DNA of 64,000 nt from an uncultured Cetobacterium sp. (GTDB lineage: Bacteria > Fusobacteriota > Fusobacteriia > Fusobacteriales > Fusobacteriaceae). The position numbers and the translations under genes are program-made. Numbering within the stretch: the first letter of the stretch is position 1; every line of letters begins with the position of its first letter. Below, piece after piece: positions 59,609 through 63,629 of the stretch. The stretch is from positions 1 to 64,000 of the forward strand of contig NZ_CAMFHX010000004.1 in assembly GCF_945952365.1 (NCBI RefSeq). Reading direction: 5' to 3'. The notes beneath the pieces are model-generated. The model made no database searches, was not told the origin of the DNA, and saw only the letters and a program-made list of their open reading frames with translations.

Positions 59609-59637
59609 CTTTTCAAAATAAAATATTTGTAGTATAA
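59609..59637 (+). promoter_or_regulatory. Promoter of the cobalamin uptake operon
   Basis: TTTTCA (59609-59614), 17-base spacer, TATAAT (59632-59637). Transcription starts just before the riboswitch. The bases between ogt and here hold nothing else I recognise. Confidence 0.65.
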
Positions 59638-59639
59638 TA

Positions 59640-59820
59640 ATTTGGTATGGTTTTGAAATTAAAAGGGAATTAAGTGAAAATCTTAAACGGTCACGCCACT
59701 GTAAAATGGACGAAAATAGTGAAACCACTGGGAAACTGGGAAGGGCTATTGCTAGGATGAAGTTGAGTCAGGAGACCTGCCATAAAATTTAAATCTGCGA
59801 ATGACAGAGCGGGAGGATTA
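59640..59820 (+). ncRNA. Cobalamin riboswitch
   Basis: The leader contains the conserved cobalamin aptamer parts in order: AAAAGGGAA (59661-59669), GGTCACGCCACTGT (59689-59702), GGGAAACTGGGAAGGGC region (59730-59746) and a full B12 box, AGTCAGGAGACCTGCC (59766-59781). A short TCTG/CAGA hairpin lies just before GCGGGAGG, the ribosome site. With no terminator after the aptamer, control is probably by masking the ribosome site of the TonB-receptor gene. Confidence 0.95.
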
Positions 59821-59826
59821 AAAAAA

Positions 59827-61755
59827 GTGAATAAAAAATTTTTATTAGTAGCATTAGTTGCTGTAGCTAATTTAGCTGTTGCAGAACAAAAAGTTATAAA
59901 GTTAGAGGAAAGTGTTATAACAAGTGAGAACAGTTCAGCGACGATAGCTGATATTCCAAAAAATATAACTGTTTTAACGGCTGAAGAGATAGAGCAAAGA
60001 GGAGCGAAGACAGTAGCGGAAGCTTTAAAATTAGTATCGAGTGTAACTGTTAAAGAGATGGGTGGAGCAGATGCAGCTTTTGATATGAGAGGTCAAGGAG
60101 CGACTGCAAAATCAAATGTAGTTGTGCTTGTAGATGGAGCACCGATAAACTCGATAGATTTATCTGGATATAAAACTAGTTCAATACCTGTTGACAATAT
60201 AGAGAGAATAGAGGTTATTCCTTCGGGAGGGTCTGTTTTATATGGAGATGGAGCTATTGGAGGAACAATAAATATTGTAACTAAGCAGCCAAAGAATAAG
60301 AAAAATTATGGTAGTTTAAATAGTGAGATAGGGTCTTACGGATTAAAAAAGCAACAAGCTATATATGGAACAAAGATTAATGATAAGTTATCTTTAGAGT
60401 TGGATTATTTGAAAAAAGAGAAGGATGGATATAGAGATTATGCCAAAGATGATTTAGAAAGCTTTGGACTTAGAAGTAGATATAAGTTATCAGAGGGTGA
60501 GTTTGGATTTAAATATAACTATTCAAATACTGAGTTTAGAGCTCCTGGAAGCTTAACAAGAGAAGAGGTTGACGGAGATAGAACTCAATCTACTGGTAAT
60601 AGTTGGAGAGTTTTTGATGGTAAGACAGAAAAAAATGATTTTACAGGAGATTATACATATAATATAAACTCTGATTTAGAATTTAAAGTGCTTGGAATGT
60701 ATTCTAGAGAAGCATATAGAAATATTAACGGATATCTTATTCCAGAATATAGAACAGATTATAAAACAGAGTTGAAATACTTAAAGCCACAGTTAAAGTA
60801 TTCATACTTAGAAGAAAGTTATGTAGTGTTTGGTGGAGAAATTTTTGAAGGAGAAACGATAAATTATTCAAGCTCTGGAGATAATAAAGTTGAAAAAGAA
60901 TCAATAGCAGGGTTTTTAATAAATAGTTATACATTTAATGATTTAAGATTTACTCAAGGATATAGAAGACAAAATATTGAATATAAGGGATTGGGAAAAA
61001 AAGGAATTACAAAAAAATACCAAGCAGATGCGTTAGAATTAACAACAAGTTATCTATATTCAGATTCTGGATCAACTTATATAAGTTATACAAAAGCCTT
61101 TAGAACACCTAATACAGACGAATTAAATCCTGATTATTTACCTGATAATGCTAACTTTGAGATGCAAAAAACAGAGACATATGAATTAGGAATAAAAGAT
61201 TATTTAGGAAATACATATATTTCAACATCAATATTCTACATTGAAACTCAACATGAAATATATTTTGATGCGATCAATTATGTTAATAGAAATTTAGATG
61301 GAATGAGTAAAAGAAAAGGAATTGAGTTCTCGTTAGAGCACTACTTTGATAAGTTGACGATTTCAGAATCATTGACATATATGGAAACAGAGTTTAAAGA
61401 CGGAAAGGATATTCCAGGGGTTCCAAATATAAAAGGAGTGTTGAACTTAAACTATAAGTTTAATGATAAACTTACTTTAAATAACTCTTGGGAATATTAT
61501 GGTAAGGCTTTTGATAGCTCTGATGAAGCAAATATAAGAGAAAAAGTAGATAGTTATTTAATAAGTGGATTATCTATGTCGTATGACTTTAAAGACGGAT
61601 TGATTGTAAGTATAGGAGTAAATAATATGTTCAATGAAAAGTATTATGACTACATAGGATATAAAGAACCTTCAGATTGGGACCCAACTTTTGGTAGAGT
61701 TTATTATCCAGCAGCAGAAAGAAATTATTATTTAGGAGTTAAATACAGCTTCTAA
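59827..61755 (+). CDS. btuB: TonB-dependent outer-membrane receptor, probable cobalamin transporter
   Basis: The 642-residue protein has a signal peptide (NKKFLLVALVAVANLAVA, cleaved before EQ), a plug domain with IADIPKNITVLTAEEIEQRGAKTVAEALKLV, within residues 38-69, and GGSVLYGDGAIGGTINIVTK, then a beta-barrel of about 22 strands ending YYLGVKYSF with the terminal aromatic residue. The TonB box is near VIKLEESVIT. The cobalamin riboswitch directly upstream and btuF downstream indicate a corrinoid substrate. The start is GTG 59827 with GGGAGG upstream. It shows that the organism has an outer membrane. Confidence 0.9.
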   Translation: MNKKFLLVALVAVANLAVAEQKVIKLEESVITSENSSATIADIPKNITVLTAEEIEQRGAKTVAEALKLVSSVTVKEMGGADAAFDMRGQGATAKSNVVVLVDGAPINSIDLSGYKTSSIPVDNIERIEVIPSGGSVLYGDGAIGGTINIVTKQPKNKKNYGSLNSEIGSYGLKKQQAIYGTKINDKLSLELDYLKKEKDGYRDYAKDDLESFGLRSRYKLSEGEFGFKYNYSNTEFRAPGSLTREEVDGDRTQSTGNSWRVFDGKTEKNDFTGDYTYNINSDLEFKVLGMYSREAYRNINGYLIPEYRTDYKTELKYLKPQLKYSYLEESYVVFGGEIFEGETINYSSSGDNKVEKESIAGFLINSYTFNDLRFTQGYRRQNIEYKGLGKKGITKKYQADALELTTSYLYSDSGSTYISYTKAFRTPNTDELNPDYLPDNANFEMQKTETYELGIKDYLGNTYISTSIFYIETQHEIYFDAINYVNRNLDGMSKRKGIEFSLEHYFDKLTISESLTYMETEFKDGKDIPGVPNIKGVLNLNYKFNDKLTLNNSWEYYGKAFDSSDEANIREKVDSYLISGLSMSYDFKDGLIVSIGVNNMFNEKYYDYIGYKEPSDWDPTFGRVYYPAAERNYYLGVKYSF

Positions 61756-61762
61756 GAAAGAG

Positions 61763-61795
61763 ATGCTCTTTTCAAAGTTTGAAAGGAGCATTTTT
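61763..61795 (+). terminator. Terminator-like hairpin between btuB and the btuF-like gene
   Basis: ATGCTCTTTTC (61763-61773), loop AAAGTTT, GAAAGGAGCAT (61781-61791) form an 11-bp stem with one G-U, then TTTT. It probably reduces expression of the downstream genes relative to the receptor. Confidence 0.75.
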
Positions 61796-61818
61796 CATAT
61801 TATTTGAAGGAGAAGGTA

Positions 61819-62673
61819 ATGTTAAAAAAAATAATGATATTAAACACTTTTATTTTCACGATTTGTTTTTCAAGAGTATTAGTAGATAGTACAGGAAGAG
61901 TAATTGAAATACCAGAAAATATCGAAAGAGTAGTATCTACTGTAACATCTAATACAGAGATTATTGTAGATATGGGATTGGTAGATTTATTAGTAGGAGT
62001 GGATAGTTATTCAGAAAAAGTGGATAAAAGATTAAGTGAAAAAGGAGTTTTAAGAAGTGATGACTTGAATGAGGAAAAAATAGTAGAGTTAATGCCAGAC
62101 CTAGTAATTTCATCTCATCATAATCTGAAAAAAGGGAAAGAGAGTTTGAAATTTTTTGATGAAGTTGGAATTCCGGTGTATGTTATTAAAAATCCAAAAT
62201 CTTTGAGTGAGGTAGCTGATTCGGTTATAGAGATAGGTGAAATTTTAAATAAAAAAAGTGAAGCTGAACATCTAAAAGATAAGTTTTTAAAAGAGTTGAA
62301 AGAGATAGTCTCAAATAAAAACTCTGAAGATAAAAAAGTATATTTTGAAATTTTAGAAAATCCAATATATACAACAGGTTCTGAAACTTTTTTAAATGAT
62401 GCTTTAGAAAGTGTTGGTGGAAAAAATATTTTCAGAGATGAAAAGGGCTGGATTTCACCACCAATAGAATCTATTTTAGAGAAAGACCCTGATGTGATAT
62501 TAGTGGGTGAAGATAGAAAATATATGGTAGAAGAGATATTAGCAAGAGATGAGTGGCAGGATGTAAATGCTATAAAAAATAAAGAGGTATATTTTATAGA
62601 TGAAAGTATAAATAGACCTTCACCAAGAGTTTTAAAAGCATTGAAAGAGCTAAGGGAAGTGTTAGATAAATGA
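61819..62673 (+). CDS. btuF: Periplasmic binding protein, BtuF-like (cobalamin ABC transporter)
   Basis: The product is a cluster-8 substrate-binding protein with the BtuF/FhuD fold. The start is ATG 61819, after AAGGAGAAGG; a TTG at 61804 lies within that site. It begins with a signal peptide (KKIMILNTFIFTICFS), then VDSTGRVIEIPENIERVVS, EIIVDMGLVDLLVGVD, IVELMPDLVISS and, later, ESILEKDPDVILVG. No lipobox Cys follows, although C14 lies in the signal. The 284-residue length fits. The ABC permease and ATPase genes btuC and btuD are not in the window. Its end overlaps the next gene by four bases. Confidence 0.82.
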   Translation: MLKKIMILNTFIFTICFSRVLVDSTGRVIEIPENIERVVSTVTSNTEIIVDMGLVDLLVGVDSYSEKVDKRLSEKGVLRSDDLNEEKIVELMPDLVISSHHNLKKGKESLKFFDEVGIPVYVIKNPKSLSEVADSVIEIGEILNKKSEAEHLKDKFLKELKEIVSNKNSEDKKVYFEILENPIYTTGSETFLNDALESVGGKNIFRDEKGWISPPIESILEKDPDVILVGEDRKYMVEEILARDEWQDVNAIKNKEVYFIDESINRPSPRVLKALKELREVLDK

Positions 62674-63629
62674 TAACATTTAGTTTTATACCTAAAGAAA
62701 ATGAGTTTGAAAATTTCAAAACTATATACAATCAACTCAGAGAGAAAGGTATCTCTGGAATTGAAACAATTATCGGAGATCATTTAGATTTTTCAGAGTA
62801 TAAAAACTATCCAATCAAAGGAGTGCATCTTTTGTATTATCCAACGTGGTTAGAGTTTTGGAAAGGTGATTGGAAAAAAGTTAAAGAAGATTTTTATGAT
62901 GATGAAGGGATAAAAAATTACTATAGAAGTTTTAAAAAAAATATTTTGATAGAAACGTTTAAGGAGCAGTTTGAAAACGCTAAAAAAATAGATGCTGAGT
63001 ATATGGTTTTTCATGTTTCACACGTTCGACCAAAAGATATATTTCAATTTGATTTTCAATATACAGATTTAGAGGTTTTAGATGAGTGTATAAAAATAGT
63101 GAATGAAGTTTTTAAAGGTGAAGGACCATTATTGCTATTTGAAAATCTCCCTTGGCCAGGATTAAATTTTAGAGATTATGAACTTACTAGATATTTTATT
63201 CAGAAAGTAAAATATAAAAATAAAGGGTTTCTTTTAGATTTTTCACATCTAATTTGTTTGGAGAGAGAAGTGACAAATTTTGAGGAAGCAAATAAGTTTA
63301 TAATTGATAGAATTGGAAAAATGAAAGAGTTAAAAGATTATATTTTTGGATTACATGTGAATGGGGTAAAGTTTGATAAATTTCTAGATTGTGATTTTCA
63401 AAATAAAATCTCTGAATGGGAGAAGGGAGATAGATATGAAAAATTTCAAATTGAGTTAAATCATATGAAAAATATAGACCCACACCTTTTATATAAAGGG
63501 AATATAAATGAAATAATTAAATATTTACCAAATTTTAAATATATAAATTTAGAACTCGGTTTTTCATCGTTATTAGAGTTAAAAGAGAAAGTTCTAGAGC
63601 AGCTAAATTATCTCAAAATAAATTTTTAA
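62670..63629 (+). CDS. Xylose isomerase-like TIM-barrel protein, unknown role in cobalamin locus
   Basis: The 319-residue product resembles the xylose isomerase/AP endonuclease family 2 TIM barrel: ISGIETIIGDHLDFSEY at strand 2, KGVHLLYYPTWLEFW, AEYMVFHVSHVRP, LLFENLPWPGLNF with a metal-type Glu and the Asn after it, GFLLDFSHLICLE with Asp and His, GLHVNGVKFDKF with His, and NLELGFSS late. These Glu, Asp and His positions fit a divalent-metal site. It overlaps btuF by four bases (ATGA), so the two are made together, which suggests work on corrinoid or on a bound ligand. I do not know its reaction. Confidence 0.75.
   Translation: MITFSFIPKENEFENFKTIYNQLREKGISGIETIIGDHLDFSEYKNYPIKGVHLLYYPTWLEFWKGDWKKVKEDFYDDEGIKNYYRSFKKNILIETFKEQFENAKKIDAEYMVFHVSHVRPKDIFQFDFQYTDLEVLDECIKIVNEVFKGEGPLLLFENLPWPGLNFRDYELTRYFIQKVKYKNKGFLLDFSHLICLEREVTNFEEANKFIIDRIGKMKELKDYIFGLHVNGVKFDKFLDCDFQNKISEWEKGDRYEKFQIELNHMKNIDPHLLYKGNINEIIKYLPNFKYINLELGFSSLLELKEKVLEQLNYLKINF

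Follow-up and report, generated by a model that had tools for sequence, protein, structure and literature searches.

The 64,000-nucleotide stretch considered here (the window) is part of a 122,691-base contig, C4, of a 2.5 Mb genome of Cetobacterium, a fish-gut-type bacterium from the phylum Fusobacteriota. The gene at positions 62670-63629 of the forward strand, which closes a locus with a cobalamin riboswitch and B12-like uptake genes, encodes a TIM-barrel protein of 319 amino acids matching the AP_endonuc_2 family (PF01261, 40.4 bits, cut-off 31.1). We suggest, with a probability of about 0.6, that this barrel protein is a metal-dependent phosphodiesterase of the cytoplasm, which cleaves cobamides as the first step in remodelling imported corrinoids, and that its lineage is separate from that of CbiR; the activity is deduced from gene context and conserved residues.

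A preliminary description of the locus guessed that the barrel protein acts on corrinoid, and this guess is supported by the genetic link of the whole family to corrinoid metabolism, far beyond the locus itself. The same description knew of no such role. However, CbiR, a protein of the same superfamily, is a cobamide phosphodiesterase. According to the available text of PMC7733943, CbiR of Akkermansia muciniphila (Amuc_1679) hydrolyses adenosylcobalamin (AdoCbl) and other cobamides to adenosylcobinamide phosphate (AdoCbi-P) and alpha-ribazole; it is inhibited by EDTA, needs a reductant and the absence of oxygen in vitro, and mutations at many of its conserved His, Asp or Glu positions inactivate it.

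The proposal for the family as a whole is more tentative, and we hold it at slightly less than even odds. The barrel proteins would be phosphodiesterases that cleave cobamides and make up a family not yet described, with an origin apart from CbiR, perhaps on the endonuclease IV side of the superfamily, and with a wide distribution in Fusobacteriota, Clostridia and Negativicutes. In Fusobacterium and a small number of other genomes they would act in a common module with CbiZ and a chelatase (CobN/ChlI/ChlD), which dismantles imported corrinoids, possibly to cobalt. If this is true, one superfamily supplied enzymes for the same reaction on at least two occasions, and many anaerobes of gut and sediment remodel cobamides. 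Such anaerobes would count as non-remodellers in genome surveys, since they have neither CbiZ nor CbiR: among 98 Fusobacteriota genomes, CbiZ was found in only six, the CbiR cut-off was passed by none, and the barrel family is present in 29. It would also alter predictions about which organisms can use the B12-like vitamins of which others. No paper on the barrel family in B12 metabolism came up in searches confined to one open-access library.

Gene neighbourhoods of the barrel family

A single-sequence scan of genome contigs gave no relative of the barrel protein, whereas an alignment-based scan did. The 31 Fusobacteriota members all match PF01261 at E <= 1e-5, and the profile built from them found relatives in Clostridium, Paraclostridium, Epulopiscium, Cellulosilyticum, Sporomusa, Selenomonadales, one Treponema metagenome-assembled genome (MAG), and others. 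The 97 members analysed comprise these 31 sequences and 66 others, the latter being those closest to the Fusobacteriota profile and not a random sample. The clade spans Fusobacteriota, Clostridia, Negativicutes and one Treponema.

A member was considered B12-linked if a riboswitch or a cobamide gene lies within 6 kb, or if its locus has BtuB or BtuCD together with a substrate-binding protein, or BtuB together with BtuCD. By this definition 49 of the 97 members are linked (23/31 in Fusobacteriota, 26/66 elsewhere), and 46 are linked if the transporter-only cases are set aside. Riboswitches were counted with a home-made pattern, which gave 0 matches in shuffled sequence, and with Rfam on 50 loci, so that some may have been overlooked in the remaining loci; in L053, L061, L067 and L131 the riboswitch came from Rfam and not from the pattern (loci are numbered with the letter L). 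A riboswitch lies within 6 kb in 17 of the 31 Fusobacteriota loci, against approximately 0.9 expected by chance, the loci being related. None of 71 other AP_endonuc_2 matches was seen by eye within 10 kb of a riboswitch, among the riboswitches listed.

In nine members the riboswitch is directly upstream of the barrel gene: L102 and L116 (at 70-78 nucleotides), L065, L066 and L072, and L130, L132, L149 and L144 (at 0.24-0.62 kb). The gene order in L065, L066 and L072 is riboswitch-barrel-btuB-btuF. The barrel gene neighbours btuB and an adenosyltransferase gene in L051, adjoins an adenosyltransferase gene in L156, L159, L161 and L165, and stands with BtuCD-adenosyltransferase in Sporomusa. BtuFCD-like neighbours were observed in L061, L069, L122, L131 and L137.

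In Fusobacterium-type genomes the barrel gene closes a run of genes encoding CbiZ, CobN, a radical S-adenosylmethionine (SAM) protein, ChlI and ChlD, and the company of CbiZ, CobN, ChlI and ChlD recurs in Fusobacterium, a Treponema and a Selenomonadales MAG. Each of the six CbiZ genes detected in Fusobacteriota lies in a barrel-gene locus, five of them with CobN and one (L070) without it. CbiZ is also encoded near the barrel gene in L142, L147, L148 and L163.

As a separate observation, a set consisting of a CobN-like chelatase, a radical SAM/SPASM protein, ChlI, ChlD and the barrel protein recurs in L062, L063, L064, L067, L068 and L070 (Fusobacterium-type genomes) and in L139, L142 and L147 (Alkalibaculum, Selenomonadales and Treponema MAGs). 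The members vary between loci: most have CbiZ, and L067 has a NifX-like protein. The set is perhaps a corrinoid-opening or cobalt-handling module. Operon-2 of Dehalobacter restrictus is led by a riboswitch, encodes transporters, two CbiZ, CobN and Mg-chelatase subunits, and rises 346-fold under corrinoid starvation; the portion of its description that was available (PMC4285132) names no barrel gene.

Genes of the nucleotide loop form another group of neighbours. A divergent CobT is encoded beside the barrel gene in L151, L154 and L167, together with CobU and CobS in L151 and L167. In L218 and L219 a riboswitch is followed by genes for two BzaB-like ThiC proteins, CobT, an energy-coupling factor (ECF) protein, AIRS and the barrel protein, the last gap being 7 and 78 nucleotides, respectively. 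The BzaB-like proteins score 592-651 bits with TIGR04386, under the cut-off of 700, and also pass the ThiC cut-offs. In L102 (2110-2755) and L116 (2324-2762) two cobalamin riboswitches are located back to back, one facing ECF/AIRS genes and the other a lone barrel gene. The ECF/AIRS genes are perhaps those for CblT/CblS, a reading on which two papers bear (PMC6461909, PMC6167548).

Given the company of cobamide genes and riboswitches, there are strong signs that the substrate or the product of the barrel protein would belong to the nucleotide loop. One possibility is that the protein acts in corrinoid metabolism on some other target, such as the freed alpha-riboside, a lower-ligand nucleotide, or another corrinoid bond. 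The genes adjoining the family in L218 and L219 are lower-ligand genes, and the divergent ECF/AIRS genes of L102 and L116 fit such a role as well. However, other members stand with BtuFCD, adenosyltransferase or CbiZ with no lower-ligand gene in view, the conserved residues resemble those of phosphodiesterases, and CbiR is a direct precedent for cobamide cleavage; we thus consider another target unlikely.

A further sample of 249 genomes gave nine matches, of which two were already known (L204 is L148, and L212 is L107) and seven are new loci. Three of the latter (L216, L218, L219) are firmly B12-linked, three (L213, L215, L217) are not, and L214 is weakly linked by CbiQ/ECF genes and a riboswitch of 39.6 bits. 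The profile scan itself had given 80 loci. Nine repeating Fusobacteriota genomes already included (L089-L093, L114, L118, L136, L153), three with odd gene calls (L108, L158, L160), two with no barrel gene called (L145, L168) and the fragment L073 were dropped from the counts; among these, a riboswitch is present in L158, and L160 has a CobS-like gene 0.7 kb away. A tblastn search on plasmids gave two chromosome-sized records with no annotation at the match.

Conserved residues and relation to CbiR and endonuclease IV

The Glu, Asp and His residues of the barrel, in which the preliminary description saw a possible metal site, proved to be strictly conserved. Nine residues, H53, H115, E158, D190, H193, H229, D270, H272 and E295, are invariant in all 97 members and in 8 of 8 further members, one of which (L212) comes from the contig of L107 and is already within the 97. 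In the AlphaFold2 model, a TIM barrel with a mean predicted local distance difference test (pLDDT) score of 94.8, residues H53, H115, E158, D190 and H229 are at or near the ends of the barrel strands, E295 directly follows the last strand, and D270 and H272 are beside a one-residue bridge.

We take the metal ligands of E. coli endonuclease IV (Nfo) to be H69, H109, E145, D179, H182, H216, D229, H231 and E261. The letters at these positions of Nfo have the same order as the nine residues of the family, with the same D-x-x-H and D-x-H spacing. H115, E158, D190, H193 and H229 align with H109, E145, D179, H182 and H216 of Nfo and with 11 of 11 CbiR sequences. The four remaining residues would match those of Nfo, as suggested by order, spacing and invariance. 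As a whole, the set is closer to the phosphodiesterase end of the superfamily than to the mononuclear isomerases.

In the structure search proposed in the preliminary description, endonuclease IV is the top Foldseek match of the model (E 4.7e-8), and VIA-align does not separate the subfamilies. A search of PDB sequences with the family profile retrieved IolI (E 9e-7) and Thermotoga maritima endonuclease IV (E 0.004), and a search with the single window sequence gave a chance match only. Endonuclease IV shares with the barrel family the fold, the order of nine ligands and an adjacent place in one of the trees described below. The gene context differs, being B12 and not DNA repair. The window protein does not match the endonuclease IV model TIGR00587 (cut-off 129.65 bits), with which the member from L156 scores 27.6 bits.

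CbiR and the barrel family both belong to the AP endonuclease 2 superfamily, have conserved His, Asp and Glu residues, and are encoded beside cobamide genes and, in the case of 25% of the CbiR homologues in PMC7733943, beside transporters. However, window-type proteins are longer (approximately 320 versus 235-290 amino acids) and have an insert after H229. The barrel family is often riboswitch-linked and located beside BtuF, adenosyltransferase or CobN/ChlID.

The barrel protein might still be a true CbiR that has diverged, belonging to the known clade but missed by the hidden Markov model NF041277. The superfamily, the kind of residues and the genetic company are all shared, and the approximately unbiased test, with the family and CbiR constrained as one clade, narrowly fails to reject this topology (p 0.0515, on long branches). 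On the other hand, the window protein has no match to NF041277 at E <= 10. The 97 members form one clade in a 116-sequence tree (support 99 in the Shimodaira-Hasegawa-like approximate likelihood ratio test), apart from 12 CbiR (99). In a more careful search with 43 sequences, 24 of them from the family, the family and CbiR again form one clade each (100/99); E. coli endonuclease IV is placed with the family (98/83), where the branches that join are long. Moreover, the Treponema genome of L147 carries both a true CbiR (L169, 127.8 bits) and a member of the barrel family. True CbiR identity was rejected on the missing NF041277 match and the separate clades in both trees, and a divergent CbiR seems to us decidedly improbable. 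Judged by sequence, the barrel family seems to have been recruited separately from within the superfamily. Its mode of action is probably that of CbiR, yet it falls outside the CbiR family in the sense of NF041277.

The functional parallel with CbiZ, the adenosylcobinamide amidohydrolase, is of another kind. CbiZ also opens imported corrinoids for rebuilding, is linked to uptake genes, and shares loci with the barrel family in Fusobacterium. However, it belongs to another Pfam family, cuts another bond, and was not found in the window genome.

The window locus and the proposed remodelling

All features of the locus are on the forward strand. The cobalamin riboswitch aptamer (RF00174) occupies positions 59631-59798 (cmscan 95.9 bits, E 1.2e-22, gathering threshold 31.5) and is the sole Rfam match across the window. 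Directly behind it, positions 59827-61755 encode a btuB-like TonB-dependent outer-membrane receptor of 642 amino acids with a GTG start and the Pfam domains Plug and TonB_dep_Rec_b-barrel. The receptor gene is followed by a terminator-like hairpin with a T-rich tail (61759-61795; 17 pairs, -19.1 kcal/mol, z -5.1), equalled in none of 200 shuffles. The next gene, 61819-62673, encodes a btuF-like periplasmic substrate-binding protein (Peripla_BP_2, 127.2 bits) with a hydrophobic N-terminus; its reading frame was listed as 61804-62673 from a TTG, and the ATG at 61819, which has a ribosome-binding site, is preferred. The stop of this gene and the start of the barrel gene overlap by four nucleotides, ATGA at 62670-62673. 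Rfam, Pfam and folding thus bear out every element of the order given in the preliminary description, and the overlap is as claimed there.

Neither btuC nor btuD was found near the locus, also in agreement with that description; FecCD and ABC genes with another substrate-binding protein and a riboswitch are present on contig C14 of the same genome. The gene order is identical in all nine loci of the genus that bear the barrel gene, with the btuF and barrel genes overlapping by 4, 8 or 14 nucleotides.

The claim of one riboswitch-controlled operon stands as regards the riboswitch and the gene order. It does not extend to control of the whole set by one riboswitch, as a conserved terminator-like hairpin follows btuB in nine of nine loci, which makes riboswitch control of the two genes behind it uncertain in this genus. 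The window receptor is under the NCBIfam cut-off for BtuB equivalogs (TIGR01779, 144.8 versus 599.7 bits), and the substrate-binding protein is under that for BtuF (NF002894, 82.7 versus 234 bits). Both are therefore called only B12-like, with the riboswitch as the basis for their presumed substrate. A second riboswitch-led btuB-like receptor is encoded in the same genome (riboswitch G000:C49:5748-5927; receptor L042 3768-5738) and is 34% identical to the window receptor.

Since no signal peptide was seen in the barrel protein on inspection by eye, it would act after import. Cleavage would then take place in the cytoplasm, the barrel protein stripping the lower part off imported B12-like vitamins, and the preferred cobamide would be rebuilt by CobU, CobS, CobT and CobC, all encoded in the window genome. 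The genes for CobT, a CobC-like phosphatase (147.4 bits with ribazole_cobC, cut-off 162.9), CobS and CobU are together on contig C8, which would allow reuse of both cleavage products. A riboswitch-led cob/cbi operon encoding CobQ, CbiB, CbiA, CbiC, CbiD and CbiG is also present in the genome and points to remodelling by a likely de novo producer rather than rescue of an auxotroph. The substrate, the bond to be cut, and the coupling of uptake and cleavage are inferred here.

Counter-evidence and members outside B12 loci

Several observations speak against a cobamide phosphodiesterase. By the above definition 48 of the 97 members have no B12 context; the Cellulosilyticum/Epulopiscium subclade has 0 of 20 linked members and the Psychrilyobacter-type group 0 of 6. 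The conserved hairpin after btuB weakens the operon argument in the genus. H53, D270, H272 and E295 cannot be aligned by sequence with Nfo or CbiR in the multiple alignment, and ahead of D270 the family carries approximately 28 additional residues. In VIA-align, epimerases, xylose isomerases and endonuclease IV score alike (Z 17.6-18.9). Finally, NF041277 (cut-off 105 bits) is passed in none of the 98 Fusobacteriota genomes, and only four of the 31 members match it at all (best E 8e-4).

The preliminary description would have given up the link to B12 had the family been found mostly in unrelated contexts, for example sugar or inositol catabolism. This is not the case overall, yet almost half of the members, including the 20-member subclade, are unlinked. 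The reading as a sugar-catabolism protein was rejected: sugar or inositol genes are not recurrent among annotated neighbours, and E. coli Hyi and UlaE give only negligible profile matches (probabilities 2 and 0.3). A sugar isomerase or epimerase, or a DNA-repair enzyme, placed here by accident would agree with the Pfam label, with the unlinked half of the family, and with the best NCBIfam matches of the 31 members, endonuclease IV in 11 (best E 2e-9) and IolE in 8, but the repeated linkage to riboswitches and cobamide genes in three phyla and the negligible Hyi and UlaE matches make it very improbable.

The 20-member subclade consists of L094-L096, L098, L100, L101, L103-L106, L109-L111, L113, L115, L124-L126, L134 and L141, from Cellulosilyticum, Epulopiscium and their kin. 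It keeps the same nine residues. In many of its loci the barrel gene is located after uvrC-hprK-ROK-YcxB and before a gene for an NlpC/P60 protein. In the six Psychrilyobacter-type loci (L055-L060) the barrel gene adjoins a radical SAM gene with the Radical_SAM_C domain, overlapping it by 17 nucleotides in most of them, and a divergent histidine phosphatase, distantly CobC-like (approximately 32% identity), is encoded approximately 1 kb away. In Clostridium sp. CCUG 7971 a CRISPR array with at least 33 repeat units (L121, 5366-7501) is situated upstream of a barrel-family gene.

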